Below, piece after piece: positions 3,219 through 28,640 of a stretch of DNA of 64,000 bases (positions are counted from its first letter, which is position 1; each line of letters opens with the position of its first letter). The stretch covers positions 34,076 through 98,075 of the forward strand of contig JAFTJZ010000091.1 in NCBI GenBank assembly GCA_017456145.1, read 5' to 3'. The notes beneath the pieces are model-generated. The model ran no database searches. It was not told the DNA's origin and saw only the letters and a program-made list of their open reading frames with translations. A program made the translations under genes and the position numbers. This DNA comes from Clostridia bacterium. Its GTDB lineage: Bacteria; Bacillota; Clostridia; Oscillospirales; CAG-272.

Positions 3219-3235
3219 ATATAAGTATATCAGCG

Positions 3236-3487
3236 ACGATGGGAAAGAGTAACCGTCATATTCCCCGACAGAAAGCAGCCGGTTGATGAGAGGCGCAGGG
3301 TGCGAGGGCGGCGAATACCTCCCGGAGCTTTGTCCCGAAACGGTTCTCCGCGTGTAGGCGACAACGGCAGCCGCCCGTTACCACGCGGTAGGGTCATGCA
3401 CCCATAAAGGTCGCAGTCGCGAGGCTGTGGCGAAAAAAGGTGGTAACACGGGTCTCCCGTCCTTTTCGGACAGGGGATTTTTATTTT
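3236..3487 (+). promoter_or_regulatory. T-box leader, tyrosine specific
   Basis: About 250-nt leader between a strong promoter and tyrS. The T-box sequence AAGGTGGTAACACG (3437-3450) pairs with the uncharged tRNA acceptor end. The specifier codon is most probably TAC (Tyr) at 3316-3318 within GCGAATACCT, which agrees with the downstream gene. The terminator follows directly (next entry). By the known mechanism, uncharged tRNA-Tyr stabilises the antiterminator and switches tyrS on. Confidence 0.9.
3453..3487 (+). terminator. T-box regulated terminator
   Basis: CCCGTCC (3456-3462) and GGACAGGGG (3468-3476) form the stem around a TTTTC loop, followed by ATTTTTATTTT. Its 5' arm overlaps the region needed for the antiterminator. 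Confidence 0.8.
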
Positions 3488-4924: not shown

Positions 4925-5058
4925 ATACCTCTCATCGACAGCAGAACAGAACCGTTCGTCTCTTAATAAAAACAATTCAAGGTTTTGGAAGGTTCCAAGG
5001 AAACTTTTTCCCAAAAAGTTTCCTTGGTGGGGTTCAAGGGGCAACGCCCCTTGGCTCC
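4925..5058 (+). repeat. 134-bp direct repeat, copy 1
   Basis: Matches 5103-5236 with no gaps and only four differences by eye, at an offset of 178 bases. Each copy holds two hairpins: CCAAGGAAAC/GTTTCCTTGG and AAGGGG-caac-GCCCCTT. The second half is the architecture of the dispersed hairpin family. No gene lies in 4737-5256. Confidence 0.85.
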
Positions 5059-16899: not shown

Positions 16900-17913
16900 A
16901 TGTCTTCCACTTATACTCTCACCATTCCCGAGGGCTACCGCTCGGTTCTGACTCCTCGACAGACGCAAATCGCCATAAAAAAGGTCAAAGACTTCTTCCA
17001 GCAGAATCTTGCGGTTGAGCTTAATCTGACCCGCGTCAGCGCACCCTTGTTTGTTGCATCGGACAGCGGTCTGAATGACAATCTCAATGGCACCGAGCGT
17101 CCCGTCAAATTTGATCTGCGCGGCGGCGAGGAGCTGGAGATCGTGCATTCTCTTGCCAAATGGAAGCGCATGGCGCTGGGCGATTATGACTTTGAGCTGC
17201 ATGAGGGGCTTTACACCGACATGAACGCTATTCGCCGCGACGAGGATGTGGATAATCTCCACTCGATGTTCGTCGATCAATGGGATTGGGAAAAGATCAT
17301 CACGAAAGAGGAGCGAAACGAACAGACCCTCAAGCAAGCGGTTCGCTACATTTATGAGGCGCTCAAGCACACCGAGACCTATATCGCAAACGACTACAAT
17401 CTCGGCTCGCGTCTTTTACCCGAGGAGATCACCTTTGTGACGACACAGGAGCTGGAGGATCGTTGGCCCGACGCGACGGCAAAGCAGCGTGAATACAATA
17501 TCGTCAAGGAGCATGGAGCGGTATTTCTCATGCAGATCGGCGGGGCGCTGAAAAGCGGCAAGATCCACGATGGCCGCGCACCGGACTACGACGATTGGTC
17601 GCTCAACGGTGATATTCTGGTTTATTATCCCGTTTTGGACGTAGCACTGGAGCTGTCCTCGATGGGAATCCGTGTGGACGAGACCGCACTGATGCGGCAG
17701 CTGGAGATCCGTGGCTGCACCGAGCGCGTTTCCCTGCCCTTCCACCGTGCCTTGCTCGACGGCGAGCTGCCCTACACCATGGGTGGCGGCATCGGGCAGT
17801 CACGTATGTGTATGTTCTTCTTACGCAAGGCGCACATCGGCGAGGTGCAGTCCTCCTACTGGCCCGAGCAAATGGTCAAGGAGTGCCGCGCGGCGGGCAT
17901 TGATTTGTTGTAA
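16900..17913 (+). CDS. asnA: Aspartate-ammonia ligase (asparagine synthetase A)
   Basis: 337 residues, typical AsnA length. Makes asparagine from aspartate, ammonia and ATP. Related to class II tRNA synthetases; visible signatures are SAPLFVASDSGLNDNLNG, the VHSLAKWKR segment, the acidic TDMNAIRRDED and the C-terminal GGGIGQSRMCMFFL (motif 3). Start at ATG 16900 with a weak TGAGGTA site; promoter 40 bases upstream. Stands alone. Confidence 0.97.
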   Translation: MSSTYTLTIPEGYRSVLTPRQTQIAIKKVKDFFQQNLAVELNLTRVSAPLFVASDSGLNDNLNGTERPVKFDLRGGEELEIVHSLAKWKRMALGDYDFELHEGLYTDMNAIRRDEDVDNLHSMFVDQWDWEKIITKEERNEQTLKQAVRYIYEALKHTETYIANDYNLGSRLLPEEITFVTTQELEDRWPDATAKQREYNIVKEHGAVFLMQIGGALKSGKIHDGRAPDYDDWSLNGDILVYYPVLDVALELSSMGIRVDETALMRQLEIRGCTERVSLPFHRALLDGELPYTMGGGIGQSRMCMFFLRKAHIGEVQSSYWPEQMVKECRAAGIDLL

Positions 17914-17925
17914 TGAGTGAGAAAT

Positions 17926-17987
17926 GCGAGGGAGACCTTTTTTGTAAAAAAGGTCTCCCTCGCGCTCCCTCTAAAAAACTTTGGAGC
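17926..17987 (+). repeat. Dispersed hairpin element 3' of asnA
   Basis: GCGAGGGAGACC (17926-17937) pairs with GGTCTCCCTCGC (17952-17963), followed by a smaller hairpin GCTCC (17964-17968)/GGAGC (17983-17987) enclosing CTAAAAAACTT. Same architecture as 27594-27648; probably terminates asnA. Confidence 0.7.
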
Positions 17988-19258: not shown

Positions 19259-19327
19259 TTCCCTTTTTCAAAGTTTTTTGGAAAGGGGTGCGGGGGAAAC
19301 CTTTTGTCCACAAAAGGTTTCCCCCGC
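19259..19327 (-). repeat. Half copy of the nested 168-nt element
   Basis: Matches the right half of 22944-23112 from its TTCCTTTTT segment to the terminal hairpin GCGGGGGAAACC/GGTTTCCCCCGC (19290-19327). It starts right at the 3' end of the HTH-TPR gene and would terminate both converging genes. Confidence 0.7.
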
Positions 19328-22722: not shown

Positions 22723-22938
22723 TTGAACATACCGCTTGGAGAAAACATTCGCCGTCTTCGCCAAGAGAACGACATGACGCAGCGTGCGCTTGCTCACCAT
22801 CTTCGTGTCAGCGTACAAGCCGTTTCCAAATGGGAAACGGGACTCTCTTATCCCGACGTTGCGCTGCTTTTGAATATTGCCGACTTTTTCGCAATTTCAT
22901 TGGATGCGCTGTTCGGGAGAGAAGAAAGAAATTTATAA
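22723..22938 (+). CDS. Minimal XRE helix-turn-helix protein, TTG start
   Basis: 71 residues when started at TTG 22723, which has GGAGGAAAA 3-9 bases upstream; an ATG at 22699 lacks a ribosome site and falls before that GGAGG. The protein is almost entirely one XRE domain (MTQRALAHHLRVSVQAVSKW, then YPDVALLLNIADFFAISLDALF). Its DNA-binding helix resembles that of the 18266 regulator. No effector domain is present. Confidence 0.75.
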   Translation: MNIPLGENIRRLRQENDMTQRALAHHLRVSVQAVSKWETGLSYPDVALLLNIADFFAISLDALFGREERNL

Positions 22939-22943
22939 TATTT

Positions 22944-23112
22944 GCGAGGAGGGAAAATTCTTGAAAGAATTTTCCCTCCCCGCGCCCCTCCTTTCAAGAA
23001 CTTGAACAAAAAAGGATAGGATGTCATGGTAACGAATACATCCTATTCCTTTTTCCAAAAGTTTTTTGAAGGGGGTGCGGGGGAAACTTTTGTACACAAA
23101 AGTTTCCCCCGC
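22944..23112 (-). repeat. Nested inverted-repeat element, about 168 nt, copy 1
   Basis: From left: hairpin GGAGGGAAAATTCT.../...AATTTTCCCTCC (22948-22979), an outer arm (22980-23007), a central stem GGATAGGATG (23014-23023) with CATCCTATTCC (23039-23049) around a 15-base loop (23024-23038), the matching outer arm (23055-23077), and a terminal hairpin GCGGGGGAAAC/GTTTCCCCCGC (23077-23112). A homologue in opposite orientation is at 27594-27857. It lies between the small HTH gene and typA, which converge. Confidence 0.8.
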
Positions 23113-23124
23113 ATATTTCATTCA

Positions 23125-24969
23125 TTACTTATTCCCCTGCAGCGCGCGACGGATGCGCATCATTTCCTTCATGCGCAACTCGGTGTTGAGGATCTTTTTG
23201 CGCAGACGGATGCTCTTGGGTGTGACCTCGATCAGCTCATCGTCCTTGATAAACTCAATGGCCTCCTCCAAAGAGAAGATAACGGGCGGAGTCAGCAGCA
23301 GCTTTTCGTCCGCGCCCGCGGAGCGGATGGCGGTCAGCTGCTTGGTCTTGCAGGGATTGACGGCAATGTCGTCGTTCTTGGGATTCTCGCCCACGATCAT
23401 GCCCTCGTAAACGGGCGTCTGGGGACCGACGAACATTCTGCCGCGATCCTGCGTGTTGAAAAGCCCGTAGCGCGTTGTCTCGCCCGCCTCGGATGCCACA
23501 AGGCAGCCCGTCAGTCTCATGGAGACCTCACCGCGGAAGGGCTGATAGCTGTCAAAAATACTGTTGAGCACGCCCTCGCCGTGCGTCACCGTCAAAAATT
23601 CGGAACGATATCCAAACAAGCAGCGCGCAGGGATCAGATATTCGATGCGGGTACGGCTGCCAACGGGCTGCATCTCCAAAAGATCACCCTTGCGCTGGCT
23701 CAGCTTTTCCACCACCGCACCGACGTAATCCATCGGCACGTCAACCGTGACACGCTCCATCGGCTCACACTTGACGCCGTCGATCTCGCGGTAAAGCACA
23801 CGGGGATTGGAGCAGGTCAGCTCAAAGCCCTCGCGACGCATATTTTCAATCAGAATGGACAGGTGCATCTCACCGCGACCCGCCACGCGGAACTCGTCGG
23901 TCGAGTCTCCGTCGGAAACACGCAAGGATACGTCCTTGAGCAGCTCGCGGTAGAGTCTGTCGCGCAGCTGGCGGGAGGTCACATACTTGCCCTCCTTGCC
24001 CGCAAGCGGGCTGTCGTTGACCGAGAAGGTCATTTCCATGGTCGGCTCGCTCACCTTGACAAATTCCAATGGCTCGGGCGCGGTCGTGGAAGTGATGGTG
24101 TCACCGATGGTAATGCTCTCTGCACCCGAAAAACAAATGATATCGCCCATCTGTGCGTTCTCTACAGGGGTGCGTCCCAGACCGTCGATCTGATAAAGCG
24201 AGACAATCTTGGTACGCTTGGGAGAGACATCCTTGTTGTGGTAGTTGCAGATCAGAGCCTCCTGACCAACCTTGATCGAACCGCGCTCAATGCGACCGAT
24301 CCCGATGCGGCCGACGTAGTCGTTGTAGTCGATGGAGGAGATCAGCATCTGCAGCTCTCCCTCTCCGTCGCCTTCGGGCGCGGGAATGTAGTCCAGAATG
24401 GTATCAAACAACGGCTGCAGATCGACGCCGGGCACGTCGGGAGAGGTCGATGCCGTACCCGCGCGCCCCGAGCAGTAAAGCATAGGGCTGTCCAGCTGCT
24501 CGTCGCTGGCATTGAGATCGATCAATAGCTCCAAGATCTCATCCTCGACCTCGCCAAGGCGAGCGTCGGGCTTGTCAATCTTGTTGATGACGACAATGAC
24601 GCGATGGTTAAGCTCCAGCGCGCGCTGAAGCACGAAACGGGTCTGCGGCATGGGACCCTCAGCCGCGTCAACCAGCAAAATGACACCGTTGACCATCTTC
24701 AGAATACGCTCCACCTCACCGCCGAAATCGGCGTGTCCGGGGGTATCGACGATATTGATCTTGATGTCCTTGTAGGTCACCGAGGTATTCTTGGCAAGAA
24801 TGGTGATACCGCGCTCACGCTCCAGGGCGTTGGAATCCATGACGCGATCGGTCGTCGCCTGGTTCTCGCGGTAAGCGCCGCCCTGCTTGAGCAATCCGTC
24901 CACCAGCGTGGTCTTTCCGTGGTCAACGTGGGCAATAATGGCAATGTTTCTCAAATCTTCTCTGATCAC
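23125..24969 (-). CDS. typA: Ribosome-associated GTPase TypA/BipA
   Basis: 614 residues, standard length. Translational GTPase of the elongation-factor class that helps ribosome assembly under stress. GTPase motifs: G1 [11 protein letters not shown]2 near [11 protein letters not shown]3 [11 protein letters not shown]4 NKIDKPDA; domain II, two EF-G-like domains and the TypA-specific C-terminal domain ([20 protein letters not shown]). Starts with GTG at 24969, 9 bases after AAGGAG. The upstream AT-rich stretch (24990-25060) carries TTGACA and TATAAT only 10 bases apart on the minus strand, so its promoter is not clear. Confidence 0.97.
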
Positions 24970-25154
24970 AGTTTTTATCTCCTTATTTCATCGTTTTATG
25001 GGCACACTTTTTAACACTATATTATATCACAAATTTTGTCAAGAATAAATACGAAAAAAAACGGTTTTTTCCTGCTCTTGGCAAGTTTTTTTGTGTTTTT
25101 TGTTGAAAATCGATTGCGTGTGCGCACAATCGACGGGATTCCAAAGAAATCGGA

Positions 25155-25183
25155 TTGACAACAAGCGCACTTTGTGGTATACT
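25155..25183 (+). promoter_or_regulatory. Promoter of the PGP-type phosphatase gene
   Basis: TTGACA (25155-25160), 17 bases, TATACT (25178-25183). Confidence 0.85.
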
Positions 25184-25247
25184 AAAATGGTACATCACGC
25201 TGCGCCGACCGATTTTTGGTGCGCAGATTTGAAATTAAGGAGCCCCC

Positions 25248-25904
25248 ATGAAGATACAAGCAGCAATATTTGATTTGGACGGTACACTTGCCGACACCAT
25301 TGACGCCATCCGACAGAGCATCAACGACACCATGCGACAATACGGTTATCCCGAGCGCAGCTACGACGAGGTGCGCCGCGCCATCGGCAATGGGGCGAGA
25401 AATCTCATTCGCGGTACGCTACCCGCAGAGCTTGCTCAGGACGAGGCATTGGTCAGCCGTGTCTTTTCCACATATCAGGACAACTACGACCAAAACCACC
25501 TTGCGACCGATCGCTGCTACGACGGGATTCCCCAAGTCATTTCTGATCTTCACGCGGCGGGGGTACGTCTTGCCGTCCTCTCCAACAAGCAGGATCGCCA
25601 TGTCCGCGGCTTGGTCGCACAGCTGTTCCCAAACGGTGAATTTGAAATCGCCATGGGACAGACCGAGCTGCCCCGCAAGCCCGACCCGACCGTCCCGCGG
25701 ATGCTCGCCGCGCGCATGGGCGTCGCGCCCGAGTGCTGCGCTTTCATCGGCGACAGTGAGGTGGACATCCGTACCGCCAAAAACGCGGGAATGCCGTCTT
25801 TCGGCTGTACGTGGGGCTACCGCGATGCGCAGCTCCTTGCGGACGAGGGCGCGGATCACATCGCCGACACCCCCGAAGCATTGTGCATGATGCTTTTCAA
25901 ATAA
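25248..25904 (+). CDS. HAD hydrolase, phosphoglycolate phosphatase type
   Basis: 218 residues. HAD motifs: nucleophile FDLDGTLADT, motif II VLSNKQDR, lysine motif in LPRKPDPT, motif IV FIGDSEVDIRTAKNAG. Cap domain helical, as in the Gph/PpaX group, which dephosphorylate 2-phosphoglycolate or pyrophosphate. The precise substrate is not decidable from sequence. AAGGAG precedes the ATG. The next gene begins 25 bases downstream, so they probably share a transcript. Confidence 0.85.
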   Translation: MKIQAAIFDLDGTLADTIDAIRQSINDTMRQYGYPERSYDEVRRAIGNGARNLIRGTLPAELAQDEALVSRVFSTYQDNYDQNHLATDRCYDGIPQVISDLHAAGVRLAVLSNKQDRHVRGLVAQLFPNGEFEIAMGQTELPRKPDPTVPRMLAARMGVAPECCAFIGDSEVDIRTAKNAGMPSFGCTWGYRDAQLLADEGADHIADTPEALCMMLFK

Positions 25905-25929
25905 ACGTCAAAGAAACGAGGTAATCACC

Positions 25930-27588
25930 ATGTTCAACCTTCACACCCGTCTGACCTCCTCTCTGGAGAAGGGTTTCCTTGAGCAGTGGCCCGAGCAATT
26001 CCCCGCTCTGCACCGTGCGACCATACTGCGCAATCAGCATCTCGCCTTTCAATTGTTGTATCGTCTGGATGCGGACAATCACGCGCGCCGCTTTTCACTG
26101 AAGATCGAGGGCGAGCTCGCCCCCTACGTCACGCTGTACACCGTCGAGCAGGTACCCGTTCTGATGCCCTGCTTTCTTGGCAAGGTAGACGATAACTACC
26201 TGCGCACCACACCGGGGCTTTATCCCGATCTGCTGCAGCCGATCCACTATAGCAATGCCCTGTTTTTTGTCAAGGAACAGCTGCGCAGCCTTTGGATCAA
26301 CGTAGACACCAAGGGACAGGTGGAGGCGGGAATATATCCCCTTTCGCTGGTCATCCACAGTCCTGAGGGAGAGGAGCTCCGCCGCGAGACGCTGGAGATT
26401 GAAATTCTTGCGGCCGACCTCCCCGACCACGGCTTGATTTTGACGCAATGGTTCCACTGCGATTGTCTTGCGAACTACTACGGCTACGAGGTATTCTCCG
26501 AGCGTCACTGGGAGATCATGGAGAATTTCATGCGCACGGCGGTTGAATACGGGCAGAATATGATCCTCACCCCCCTGTTCACCCCGCCGCTTGACACCGC
26601 CGTCGGCGGAGAACGCTTGACGACGCAGCTGGTTGCCGTCACCAAAAACGGCGACGAATATACCTTCGACTTTACGCTGCTTGACCGCTACATGGACACC
26701 GCCTTACGGGCGGGAATGAAGTATTTTGAAATGTCGCACCTGTTCACCCAGTGGGGTGCTGCACACGCTCCCAAGATCATGGCAACGGTGGACGGAGAAT
26801 ACCGCCGCATCTTCGGTTGGGAGAGTGATGCCACGGGCGAGGAATACACCACCTTCCTGCAGGATTTCCTCCCCGCGCTGATCACTCACCTGAAGGAACG
26901 CGGCTTGGACAAAGCGTGTAAATACCATATCTCCGACGAGCCCAACGACGACTGTCTGGAGCAATACCGTCGCGCGCAGGCGGTGGTTGCCGAGGCTCTT
27001 GAGGGCTACGACATCATGGACGCGCTTTCCTCCTTTGAATTCTACAAGCAGGACGTGACCAAGATGCCCATTCCTGCCAGCAACCACATCGAACCCTTCC
27101 TCACAGAAAATATCTCCGGCCTTTGGACCTATTACTGCTGCGCTCAGCACACCAACGTCAGCAATCGTTTCATTGCCCAGCCCTCCTGGCGTAACCGCGC
27201 GTTGGGAATGCAGTGCTTTAAGTACGATATTGCGGGATTTTTGCAATGGGGCTACAATTTCTACAACAATATGTACTCGGTGAACAGCATCAATCCCTAC
27301 CTCTGCAACGACGGTGAGATGCAGGTTCCCGCGGGAGATGCCTTTGTCGTCTATCCCGGGCAGGACGGTCACCCGATGGTGTCGCTGCGCCTGGTCGTCT
27401 TCCGCGAGAGCTTGGAGGATATCGCCGCCATGAAACTCGCTGCCTCGCTGTGCGGCAAGGATGCCGTCGTCGCCGCCATCGAGAACGCTTACGGCAAGCC
27501 CGTTCGCTTTGATGACTGCCCCCACACCGCCGACGAAATGCTCCGCGTCAGAGCCGCAGTCGATGCTTTGATTAAAGAAAATGTATGA
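25930..27588 (+). CDS. DUF4091 protein, glycoside hydrolase family 123-like
   Basis: 552 residues, no signal peptide. N-terminal beta-sandwich region (to about 160) followed by a TIM-barrel region with DUF4091-type sequence. Adjacent Asp336-Glu337 in HISDEPNDD matches the Asp-Glu pair used in substrate-assisted catalysis by GH123 beta-N-acetylgalactosaminidases. The strand LQWGYNFYNNMYS near 438 is typical of DUF4091. Substrate is probably an N-acetylated hexosamine (family inference). Transcribed after the HAD gene; followed by a strong hairpin. Confidence 0.8.
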   Translation: MFNLHTRLTSSLEKGFLEQWPEQFPALHRATILRNQHLAFQLLYRLDADNHARRFSLKIEGELAPYVTLYTVEQVPVLMPCFLGKVDDNYLRTTPGLYPDLLQPIHYSNALFFVKEQLRSLWINVDTKGQVEAGIYPLSLVIHSPEGEELRRETLEIEILAADLPDHGLILTQWFHCDCLANYYGYEVFSERHWEIMENFMRTAVEYGQNMILTPLFTPPLDTAVGGERLTTQLVAVTKNGDEYTFDFTLLDRYMDTALRAGMKYFEMSHLFTQWGAAHAPKIMATVDGEYRRIFGWESDATGEEYTTFLQDFLPALITHLKERGLDKACKYHISDEPNDDCLEQYRRAQAVVAEALEGYDIMDALSSFEFYKQDVTKMPIPASNHIEPFLTENISGLWTYYCCAQHTNVSNRFIAQPSWRNRALGMQCFKYDIAGFLQWGYNFYNNMYSVNSINPYLCNDGEMQVPAGDAFVVYPGQDGHPMVSLRLVVFRESLEDIAAMKLAASLCGKDAVVAAIENAYGKPVRFDDCPHTADEMLRVRAAVDALIKENV

Positions 27589-27593
27589 GTAAT

Positions 27594-27857
27594 GCGGGGG
27601 GAACTTTTTTGGAAAAAAGTTCCCCCCGCACCCCCTTCAAAAAACTTGTAAAATAAATGGATAGGATGCTTTCGTTACAATGACATCCTATCCATTTTTT
27701 GTTCAAGTTCTTGAAGGGAGGGGTACGGGGAGGGGAACGATGTTTGTCGGTCGTGATGTTTTGCATAGCAAAACGGCACGATGACGGCGTTCAGCCGTCA
27801 AGGCAAACTCGAAGATCGCTTGCGATCATCTTCTTATCAAGAATTTTCCCTCCCCGC
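27594..27857 (+). repeat. Nested inverted-repeat element copy 2, with internal insertion
   Basis: Terminal hairpin GCGGGGGGAAC/GTTCCCCCCGC (27594-27629), outer arm CTTCAAAAAACTTG (27635-27648), central stem AAATGGATAGGATG (27655-27668) with its exact inverse (27684-27697) around a 15-base loop, outer arm CAAGTTCTTGAAG (27704-27716), then the last hairpin arm interrupted by a 97-base insert (27739-27835). Without the insert its length is 167, against 169 for copy 1, and it runs in the opposite direction. The central stem followed by TTTTTTG would terminate the DUF4091 gene. Confidence 0.8.
27739..27835 (+). mobile_element. Three-hairpin insert inside the nested element
   Basis: Begins GATGTTTG and contains H1 GTTTTGC-ata-GCAAAAC (27758-27774), H2 GACGGC-gttca-GCCGTC (27783-27799) and H3 GATCGC-tt-GCGATC (27814-27827). 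The sequence on either side continues the repeat of copy 1, which shows insertion. The insert at 35028 has the same order of hairpins with different stem bases. No ORF; if mobile it would need a transposase supplied elsewhere. Confidence 0.6.
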
Positions 27858-27869
27858 AAAAAACATCTC

Positions 27870-28640
27870 TCAAATCGCCTCGATAAACGCCAATCCACGC
27901 AGCACGTCTGCTTCGGGGCGCTTTTGCTCCAATGTTTTTATGACATCCAGACGCTTGATCGCGCGATGAAAGTCTAACGGCAGGTCTCCCTCACCGGGAA
28001 TAAGATGCATATCGCACATAAACGCCTCTCGATTGGTCAACTTAGCATCCGACCAGTGCACCCGTCCAATCCATTCGGGATGCTTGAGATATTCGTACAA
28101 ATAGGCAAACCGCTCCTGAGCACTCTCCTTGGTTGCCGCACCTGTAGCCGCGTGACTAGTATCCAGCGTCAGCATGACGTTATCTCGGCAAACATCCGTA
28201 TAGATTTGAAACCATTCTTCCGCCATAGAACCATACGCCTTGCGATGCGCCATGTGCAGCGCTTGATTTTCAAGACAAAGTATGATTTTTTTCGTTGCCG
28301 CATAATCGGCAACGGCACGAATCCCCTCAATCATGCGCTCGTAATTGCCCACTACCTCGCCGTGCAGTGCCTCAATGCCCATCAGATGCATGACCATACG
28401 ATCTACGGGATAGCAGCATCCGGTATCAATGGCGGTCTTGAGCGTTTCAATTGAGCGTTGCCGCCATGCATCGTCTAATGCGGCAAGATTCAGATTGGCA
28501 TACGGCAGATGAACACCGTAGACAAAAGGAACGTACTGCTCCCAATTCGGCAAAACGTCATAACGACCAATGTGCGCCTCTACGCCAAGATGCTGCTCGG
28601 TCAGAAATTTCGGGGTATGTACGGGACAGATCAATAACAT
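27870..28640 (-). CDS. Sugar phosphate isomerase/epimerase-like protein
   Basis: 256 residues. Xylose-isomerase-like TIM barrel (AP endonuclease 2 superfamily): metal-site candidates are Glu in ILCLENQALHM, Asp and His in MLTLDTSHAA, His in GRVHWSDAK and Glu in LIPGEGDLPL. Substrate unknown. GAGGTGATCGT before ATG. Lies 9 bases downstream of the PHP protein gene, so the pair is an operon, probably in sugar or cyclitol metabolism (inference). Confidence 0.75.
   Translation of the reverse strand: MLLICPVHTPKFLTEQHLGVEAHIGRYDVLPNWEQYVPFVYGVHLPYANLNLAALDDAWRQRSIETLKTAIDTGCCYPVDRMVMHLMGIEALHGEVVGNYERMIEGIRAVADYAATKKIILCLENQALHMAHRKAYGSMAEEWFQIYTDVCRDNVMLTLDTSHAATGAATKESAQERFAYLYEYLKHPEWIGRVHWSDAKLTNREAFMCDMHLIPGEGDLPLDFHRAIKRLDVIKTLEQKRPEADVLRGLAFIEAI

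Follow-up and report, generated by a model that had tools for sequence, protein, structure and literature searches.

A dispersed hairpin repeat with a mirrored, putatively triplex-forming arm at gene ends in gut Clostridia

We analysed a 64,000-nucleotide (nt) stretch of DNA from a Clostridia bacterium (hereafter the window), in which an earlier note had described two inverted copies of a 168-nt nested hairpin element. With a probability that we put at roughly one half, these two elements are paired members of a large family of dispersed repeats, with an intrastrand-triplex hairpin as its putative basic unit. Each unit consists of an arm and a terminal hairpin, and the arm mirrors the 5' strand of the hairpin, a relation that the earlier note had overlooked. 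Arm and hairpin covary across the family, units of the genus often stand just past stop codons, and in sister species units and canonical terminators nearly exclude each other. From these regularities of sequence we infer that the units may form triplexes and may act as terminators. Selection on the triplex potential is probable in our judgement, and whether the units serve gene ends is evenly balanced.

Results

Full elements are inverted pairs of a half-unit

Copy 1 (22944-23112, plus strand) and copy 2 (27594-27857, minus strand) are homologous in opposite orientation, with inverted pairs (I1, I2, I3, and I9) that are 71-96% complementary. Each copy folds into a terminal hairpin, outer arms, a central stem, and a second terminal hairpin, with folding z-scores of -13.09 and -13.14 for copies 1 and 2 (200 shuffles each). 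The inverted relation, the nested fold, and the half copy at 19259-19327 (flanked by stops, 19258 and 19349) are real, as the earlier note had described them, but the 168-nt element is not the unit. The basic repeat is the half-unit (arm plus terminal hairpin), and each full element is formed by two inverted half-units, tail to tail, around a terminator-like core. Copy 1 is approximately 170 nt long, while copy 2 reaches approximately 270 nt because a 93-nt structured stretch (27738-27830) lies inside its first hairpin. In both cases the full element fills the gap between convergent reading frames: copy 1 the space from a helix-turn-helix (HTH) frame (ending at 22938) to typA (ending at 23125), and copy 2 that from a GH123-like gene (ending at 27588) to an AP_endonuc_2-like gene (ending at 27870). 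The gene adjoining copy 2 had been taken for a DUF4091 gene enclosed by the two copies; it matches Pfam GH123_cat. We aligned 42 half-units (41 from the own genome, G000, and one from the genus member G001) and used a covariance model of the half-unit, R1. The units of the window are as follows.

22944..23003, minus strand: left half-unit of copy 1, arm and terminal hairpin; the hairpin end adjoins the HTH-frame stop (22938)
23014..23050, no strand assigned: core of copy 1 (A-tract, GGATAGGATG stem, loop, CATCCTATTCC stem, T-tract); judged by eye, an intrinsic terminator for both directions
23058..23113, plus strand: right half-unit of copy 1, R1 76.3 bits; hairpin 11 nt from the typA stop
27589..27647, minus strand: half-unit of copy 2, directly 3' of the stop of the GH123-like (DUF4091) gene; unit L108 stands at the orthologous G001 gene end
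27659..27693, no strand assigned: core of copy 2 (GGATAGGATG / CATCCTATCC)
27703..27857, plus strand: other half-unit of copy 2, hairpin in long form; adjoins the stop of the AP_endonuc_2-like gene (27870)
27738..27830, no strand assigned: 93-nt structured stretch within the long hairpin of copy 2; recurs elsewhere in the genome
19271..19331, plus strand: single half-unit between two convergent stops (19258, 19349)
17921..17981, minus strand: single half-unit, 7 nt past the stop of a gene ending at 17913
4979..5026, plus strand: A/T-type half-unit (CCAAGGAAAC stem), R1 38 bits
5157..5204, plus strand: A/T-type half-unit, R1 44.7 bits
4785..4837, minus strand: A/T-type half-unit, R1 37.1 bits
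34924..34974, minus strand: A/T-type half-unit, R1 38 bits
48627..48680, plus strand: diverged half-unit, R1 36.8 bits
12017..12066, plus strand: weak, diverged half-unit, R1 24.8 bits

The loop of the central stem is identical at 12 of 15 nt between the two copies, as first counted. Its conservation holds between the two window copies, in one local subfamily, but not across the family, since other full elements have different cores, several of which resemble an A-tract, stem, and T-tract. The differing cores and loops of full elements, together with the stand-alone half-units, rule out a single folded non-coding RNA. A simple terminator scan with a loop limit of 8 nt made no call at the core of copy 1. 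By eye, the loop appeared inverted in the G001 ortholog of copy 2; we make no claim of it, as the loop is nearly palindromic (12 vs 9 of 15, hand count). That ortholog has the short hairpin form, without the 93-nt stretch, which gave 30 matches in the own genome at E<=0.01, some in elements with other stems. The three-way-junction-like module of the long hairpin of copy 2 also occurs in another repeat context (CCGCATTCCGCTGCGCGGAACGC...TTGCTGCTGCCGGG) at L041/L042 (G000 C36:2988-3170), L040, L045, and L053, with two tandem copies in C36. At gathering score, Rfam 15 returned only a T-box leader (3227-3467) and a tRNA for the whole window; the elements match no Rfam family at that score, in line with the earlier note, and all Rfam matches listed for them lie below gathering scores.

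The family is abundant and patchily distributed

Copy 1 gave 69 matches in its own genome at E<=0.01, many spanning the right or left half only (of 119 candidates, 40 were scored, and one hairpin can match on both its strands). R1 matched 22 of 39 genomes, the own included (E<=0.1; at most 146 candidates scored per genome), with at least 146 matches each in the own genome and G001 and 79-115 in four other genus members, counts in which both strands of one hairpin may be counted twice. Matches were patchy within the family and reached 4 of 15 genomes from other families. Under stricter filters (E<=0.001; at most 19 candidates scored per genome), matches occurred in 69 out of 295 genomes from the order (the own among them), spread over 42 of 149 genera and 11 families. 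This search of own and related genomes upheld the view of a covarying structure in many copies.

Judged by typA, the nearest relatives that bear a name (84% identity) belong to uncultured Oscillospiraceae and Clostridia, and many of these come from the guts of ruminants; they are named from typA only, because the GGATAGG core pattern gave 0 matches in genome contigs. An exact 25-base half-unit pattern gave 0 matches in viral contigs and is too strict to exclude phage carriage. A strict motif scan found 7 tail-to-tail pairs among 73 units, not counting copy 2, whose long hairpin escapes the scan; motif scans also admit a few sequences unlike units (e.g., L133, L136), which were kept in the tests. 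The stretches L219-L278 were picked partly at known matches, so unit densities from them are biased upward, while L279-L318 (598 kb of G003, mostly contig starts) hold 23 units. In several units (e.g., L012, L094, L235), the arm is followed by another short repeat, around AATTTTTAGCGGTTCGGTTCT. Identical element copies occur at contig ends in G000 (C2, C21, C81; C95/C110; C52/C98), and their flanks are duplicated between contigs, which points to strain redundancy of the assembly (listed contamination 7.49%).

The arm mirrors the hairpin

In the alignment of 42 half-units, 11 of 12 hairpin pairs were changed on both sides, a count reached by 29 of 500 shuffles. The covariation score was 0.537 vs 0.285 shuffled (0/500) and at most 0.308 when slid, with the hairpin structure derived from the same alignment, which favours the result. 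The paired stem changes described between the two window copies are real.

Analysis of the units revealed a further relation. The arm (5'-AAGTTTTTTGAAGGGGG), when reversed, resembles the 5' strand of the hairpin (GGGGGAAACTTTTTT), with hairpin C met by G or C, and the match shifts by subfamily (GAAGAGAG with GAGAGAAAC, GAGGA with AGGAGC, GGGGA with ACCCC). We compared the fit of each arm to the hairpin of its own unit with its fit to the hairpins of other units by permutation, statistics that ignore the tree of the units. The fit was scored as a mirror or by a triplex code, that is, the mirror with hairpin C read as G. Among 44 units of the own genome, the z-score was 9.1 for the mirror, 4.2 for direct similarity, 1.2 for the complement, and -4.9 for the reverse complement. 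For 49 representatives (<86% identity, all stretches), the triplex code scored 8.59 vs 6.83 shuffled (z 10.1, 0/5000), with z-scores of 9.6 (mirror), 4.9 (direct), 3.6 (complement), and -3.3 (reverse complement); the purine block alone (46 units) gave 7.0 for the mirror, 6.3 for the code, and 3.7 for direct similarity. The code also fitted the units of two further sets. The first comprised 19 units of other genera (16 belonged to other families of the order), all 19 being the best model matches of their genomes (z 6.0, 0/5000; direct 4.3), and the second 17 new units from previously unused G003 stretches (z 6.0, 0/5000; direct 3.5).

The plain mirror z-score was dropped as proof, since a control with generic hairpins (300 of 579 sides of unrelated hairpins) gave z 7.3 for the mirror and 6.7 for direct similarity. 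The mirror excess of generic hairpins is due to base composition. We used instead the size of the mirror excess against the direct one, which was 1.58 vs 0.46 in the 49 representatives. Within the purine block, the mirror prevailed over direct similarity in 26 vs 6 units with 14 ties (46 usable of 49), and in 37 vs 10 with 18 ties when the distant units were added.

In a triad table, we tabulated which arm base is aligned with each hairpin base in the 49 representatives. The counts in the own unit (shuffled mean in brackets) were as follows: over hairpin A, A 86 (62), G 20 (30), T 18 (9), C 2 (6); over G, G 106 (104), T 14 (14), A 5 (16), C 4 (4); over T, T 242 (228), C 5 (8); and over C, G 49 (35), C 12 (5), T 5 (19), A 2 (9). 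The number of C before the hairpin pyrimidine run (Y-run) equals the number of G after the arm Y-run in 40 of 49 units (Spearman 0.51, reached by 5 of 5000 permutations). C occurs in both Y-runs of 21 units, in neither of 59, and in one only of 2 + 2 (84 parsed of 85 units). In all 5 off-centre cases, three of which belong to one subfamily of family f26, the position of this C is mirrored; Watson-Crick pairing of the tail with the hairpin Y-run, which would explain the TTCTT cases, fails for these 5. In triplexes, G·GC and A·AT triads are antiparallel, T·AT and C+·GC triads are parallel, and alternate-strand joining keeps one polarity of the third strand. Taken with the permutations, the triad table shows that three consecutive blocks on one strand fit such a structure.

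Units often stand past stop codons, in sister species rarely together with a terminator

Among intergenic units, the hairpin end has a stop codon facing it at up to 60 nt in 21/34 of the own genome and 21/35 of the genus, compared with 4/34 and 0/35 for the arm end; genes were called with a simple caller that missed, for example, the HTH frame beside copy 1. In the genus stretches, where gene ends at gaps of >=60 nt were compared, a canonical terminator lay 3' of the unit hairpin in 1 of 38 cases vs 132 of 352 unit-free gene ends (p 2e-6), and the median distance from the stop was 14.5 nt for the unit hairpin and 14 nt for the terminator. The unit hairpin itself is not built like an intrinsic terminator: it has no T-run behind it, and its tail is C-rich and then A-rich. 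The absence of units from gaps <60 nt (0/111, 0/312) was not used as evidence, the unit itself being approximately 55-60 nt long.

Three strands change in concert at most orthologous gene ends compared

From 99 units with an upstream reading frame, we obtained 10 gene ends with units in at least two genus members, and at 7 of them the three strands differ in concert (by eye). The gene at L225:7049-7879 is approximately 95% identical between G003 and G001 over the compared end and carries a unit 17-19 nt past its stop in all three genomes (G000, G001, and G003). This unit reads GGGGGG/CCCCCC with the tail CCCCC in G000 and G001, and GAGGGG/CCCCTC with the tail CTCCC in G003. In a G003/G002 pair (91.8% identity), the Y-run CTTCT/AGAAG with the tail AAGAA corresponds to CTTTTT/AAAAAG with the tail AAAAA. 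The other concerted cases are L026/L257, L014/L289, L236/L309, L047/L242 (one mismatch remains), and L030/L302 (a subfamily change), while the gene end L289:4135/L256:4221 was uninformative. At the end of typA, G003 and G004 have an ordinary-looking terminator hairpin; in G001 a matching hairpin is cut by the contig end, and the arm falls outside the sequence.

Discussion

A possible mechanism and its difficulties

Read 5' to 3' on the template strand of the neighbouring gene, the unit comprises the arm (a Y-run, then purines), a short turn, the hairpin 5' strand (purines, C, a Y-run), a short loop, and the hairpin 3' strand. Once the template strand is single or supercoiled, the hairpin could form, with the arm folding back as a third strand in its major groove; there the purines would lie antiparallel (G·GC, A·AT) and the Y-run parallel (T·AT, C+·GC), and G would cover the C-G pair at the junction. 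The template DNA strand would fit a triplex best, because the sense strand would need long C+ runs. The triplex might then mark or end the transcription unit instead of an intrinsic terminator, and full elements might serve two convergent genes around their terminator-like core. The repeats spread through duplication and, in a single further family of the order, as part of a miniature inverted-repeat transposable element (MITE).

Several observations weigh against this interpretation. Generic hairpins also have a mirror excess (0.46), but it equals their direct excess in size (0.42). The whole-arm contrast between mirror and direct similarity, including its near-total results (16 vs 0; 60 vs 1 with 21 ties), partly reflects the fixed layout of Y-run and purines, pyrimidine to purine in the arm and purine to pyrimidine in the hairpin. 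In the purine block of the 19 distant units, the mirror prevailed in 11 vs 4 with 4 ties (p 0.12), and the excess of T over A, 18 (9), is the sole off-code excess of the triad table. The stop bias is weak in the family stretches (hairpin end 5/18, arm end 2/18). The own genome has no terminator exclusion (4/20 vs 31/189, p 0.75), and its median distances from the stop differ (unit 15.5 vs terminator 32 nt). At orthologous ends, L249/L277 share a hairpin and differ in the arm, and between copy 2 of the window and L108 (G001, GH123-like gene) one hairpin base is changed while its partner and the arm are not; the swap of a whole unit for another subfamily could also yield concerted differences. 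In 10 comparisons of own gene ends with a unit, the gene end of the relative carried a unit four times, a strict terminator twice, and neither four times. Finally, the available part of a study of Escherichia coli potential intrastrand triplex (PIT) elements (PMC4666352) reports, citing earlier work, that these lack terminator activity, which weighs against a terminator role by triplex alone, and that in vivo footprinting gave no support for a stable triplex.

Alternative explanations

The units may instead be non-autonomous, MITE-like DNA that lands or survives 3' of genes, with the triplex or hairpin serving its own copying and no gain to the host; we consider this a possible explanation, though less likely than the triplex unit. 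A family with at least 146 matches in two genomes, a patchy occurrence in relatives, and units that come and go at orthologous stops would be expected of mobile DNA, as would near-identical dispersed copies such as the 155-nt repeat at two loci (L235, 95% identical). In G116, from another family, ten copies (L357-L366, two of them cut by contig ends) of an approximately 240-nt element contain two hairpins and a terminator-like core, with inverted ends, TA at the ends, and unrelated flanks (by eye). This element appears to be a MITE, of which the hairpin pair forms the body, and is presumably comparable with the Tc1/mariner-IS630 type. A tandem array in G001 (L239:6234-6773, 168-nt period) combines a G/C-type and an A/T-type half-unit. 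Around copies of the own genome, those of the window included, no terminal inverted repeats or target duplications were seen by eye, unlike in MITEs. Single half-units retain an orientation relative to stop codons, concerted three-strand changes accompany the units that persist at orthologous stops, and a transposase search aimed at Y1 only found none that tracks the units. As a separate observation, identical 57-nt half-units in G267 (L347-L356) stand at one end of a larger dispersed repeat, several after purine-rich AAGAGGTAAGAAG-like runs.

Less likely still is an RNA element, in which the hairpin would form the end of the mRNA, either as a barrier to exonucleases or as a Rho-dependent end; any RNA triplex would be no more than a short one of the pyrimidine motif, made by the downstream C/U-rich tail. 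The hairpin often stands just past stop codons in the transcribed orientation, the order of blocks on the sense strand is that of class III, and RNA can form intrastrand triplexes of the pyrimidine type (PMC4666352). Runs of 5-6 G would, however, need contiguous C+ triads, RNA triads would explain neither the covariation of the Y-run nor the presence of G over the junction C, and purine-motif triplexes are stated to be impossible in RNA in the available part of the same source.

That the covariation is a by-product is improbable. Quasi-palindrome correction is an established process that copies one hairpin arm onto the other, and similarity of the arm could reflect shared composition or subfamily descent. 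The composition correlation in generic hairpins is real, and permutations that ignore the tree leave room for descent. Template switching, however, gives inverted or direct copies, not mirror copies; the unit-specific permutations and the sign test on the purine block exceed direct similarity, and the mirror fit recurs in separate subfamilies and families.

Mobilisation as REP/REPIN (repetitive extragenic palindromic) repeats by a REP-associated tyrosine (Y1) transposase (RAYT) is very improbable: inverted pairs of palindromic units, single units, and the tandem array look alike in both systems, and the own genome encodes an IS200-type Y1_Tnp protein, but Y1_Tnp gave no hit in seven relatives that hold 35 to 146 matches, and no GTAG/CGTC tag was seen by eye outside the stem. 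The REP-type transposase that had been proposed for copy-rich genomes was thus not found in these seven (G001, G003, G004, G017, G030, G032, and G033; drafts, 86-98% complete), which hold at least 146, 115, 79, 69, 46, 35, and 118 matches, respectively, whereas five Y1_Tnp hits were obtained in G009, which has 0 unit matches. In the own genome, L031:1468-1929 encodes an intact-looking IS200-type TnpA (Pfam E 7.9e-42), and L032 has at approximately 1501-1770 a weak Y1-like frame below cut-off and, by eye, two copies of a GGGTCG-GGCGCCGACCCC-like palindrome (L031/L032: G000 C6, C66). The tag was sought at the palindrome foot in units of the own and other genomes; GTAG occurs in one G003 subfamily, but within the paired stem.

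Comparison with known systems

The closest known system is that of the BoxC/PIT intrastrand-triplex repeats of E. coli, also described as TM_ECO in E. coli and other proteobacteria; what follows on it refers to the available part of PMC4666352. Both are dispersed intergenic hairpins with an adjoining third-strand block, and both vary in copy number among close relatives. Inverted pairs are common to both: in E. coli MG1655, five inverted pairs of two subtypes occur among 23 motifs, compared with 7 tail-to-tail pairs among 73 units here. In the scheme of Holder et al., class I has the order third strand, purine, pyrimidine; the units here are of class I, with the third strand 5', whereas BoxC/PIT/TM_ECO are of class II (PMC4666352). 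Unlike the latter, the present units have a third strand of mixed purines and pyrimidines, are oriented to stop codons in the genus, and are widely varied and covarying, while the 23 E. coli motifs are nearly identical (PMC4666352). The host also differs, being an order of gut Clostridia instead of proteobacteria. TM_ECO is reported in 262 proteobacterial genomes, and the words Firmicutes and Clostridi- are absent from the available part of the text (PMC4666352). The TM_ECO consensus CCCTCNCCC-N3-6-GGGNGAGGG-N3-GGGNGAGGG was found in 0 of 366 loci with no mismatch allowed. A search for triplex repeats of Clostridia gave no paper title among the matches listed, in a search mostly outside subscription journals.

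REP/REPIN repeats are likewise short palindromes, mostly 3' of coding regions and often in close opposite pairs (available part of PMC3733652). The units differ from them in the absence of Y1_Tnp from the seven unit-rich relatives, in the missing GTAG/CGTC foot tag, and in an arm relation that is a mirror and not a palindrome. Rho-independent terminators share with the units their place and, in the genus stretches, the median distance past the stop, but not the structure, as the units lack the T-run after the hairpin.

Implications

Whether intrastrand DNA triplexes have a role in bacteria has been a question since PIT/BoxC were described, and the available part of PMC4666352 reports no in vivo activity found for the E. 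coli repeats, which, being nearly identical, leave little room for covariation. We regard it as unlikely, though conceivable, that a template-strand intrastrand triplex ends transcription in place of an RNA hairpin and U-tract, with selection keeping the three strands matched. If this were true, three-strand covariation would be evolutionary evidence that a DNA triple helix functions in a cell. The varied family described here provides numerous natural variants with joint changes of arm and hairpin. They lie at a defined site, past the stop codon, where sister genes frequently carry terminators, and this makes the triplex question directly testable. A long-doubted DNA structure may matter in living bacteria.

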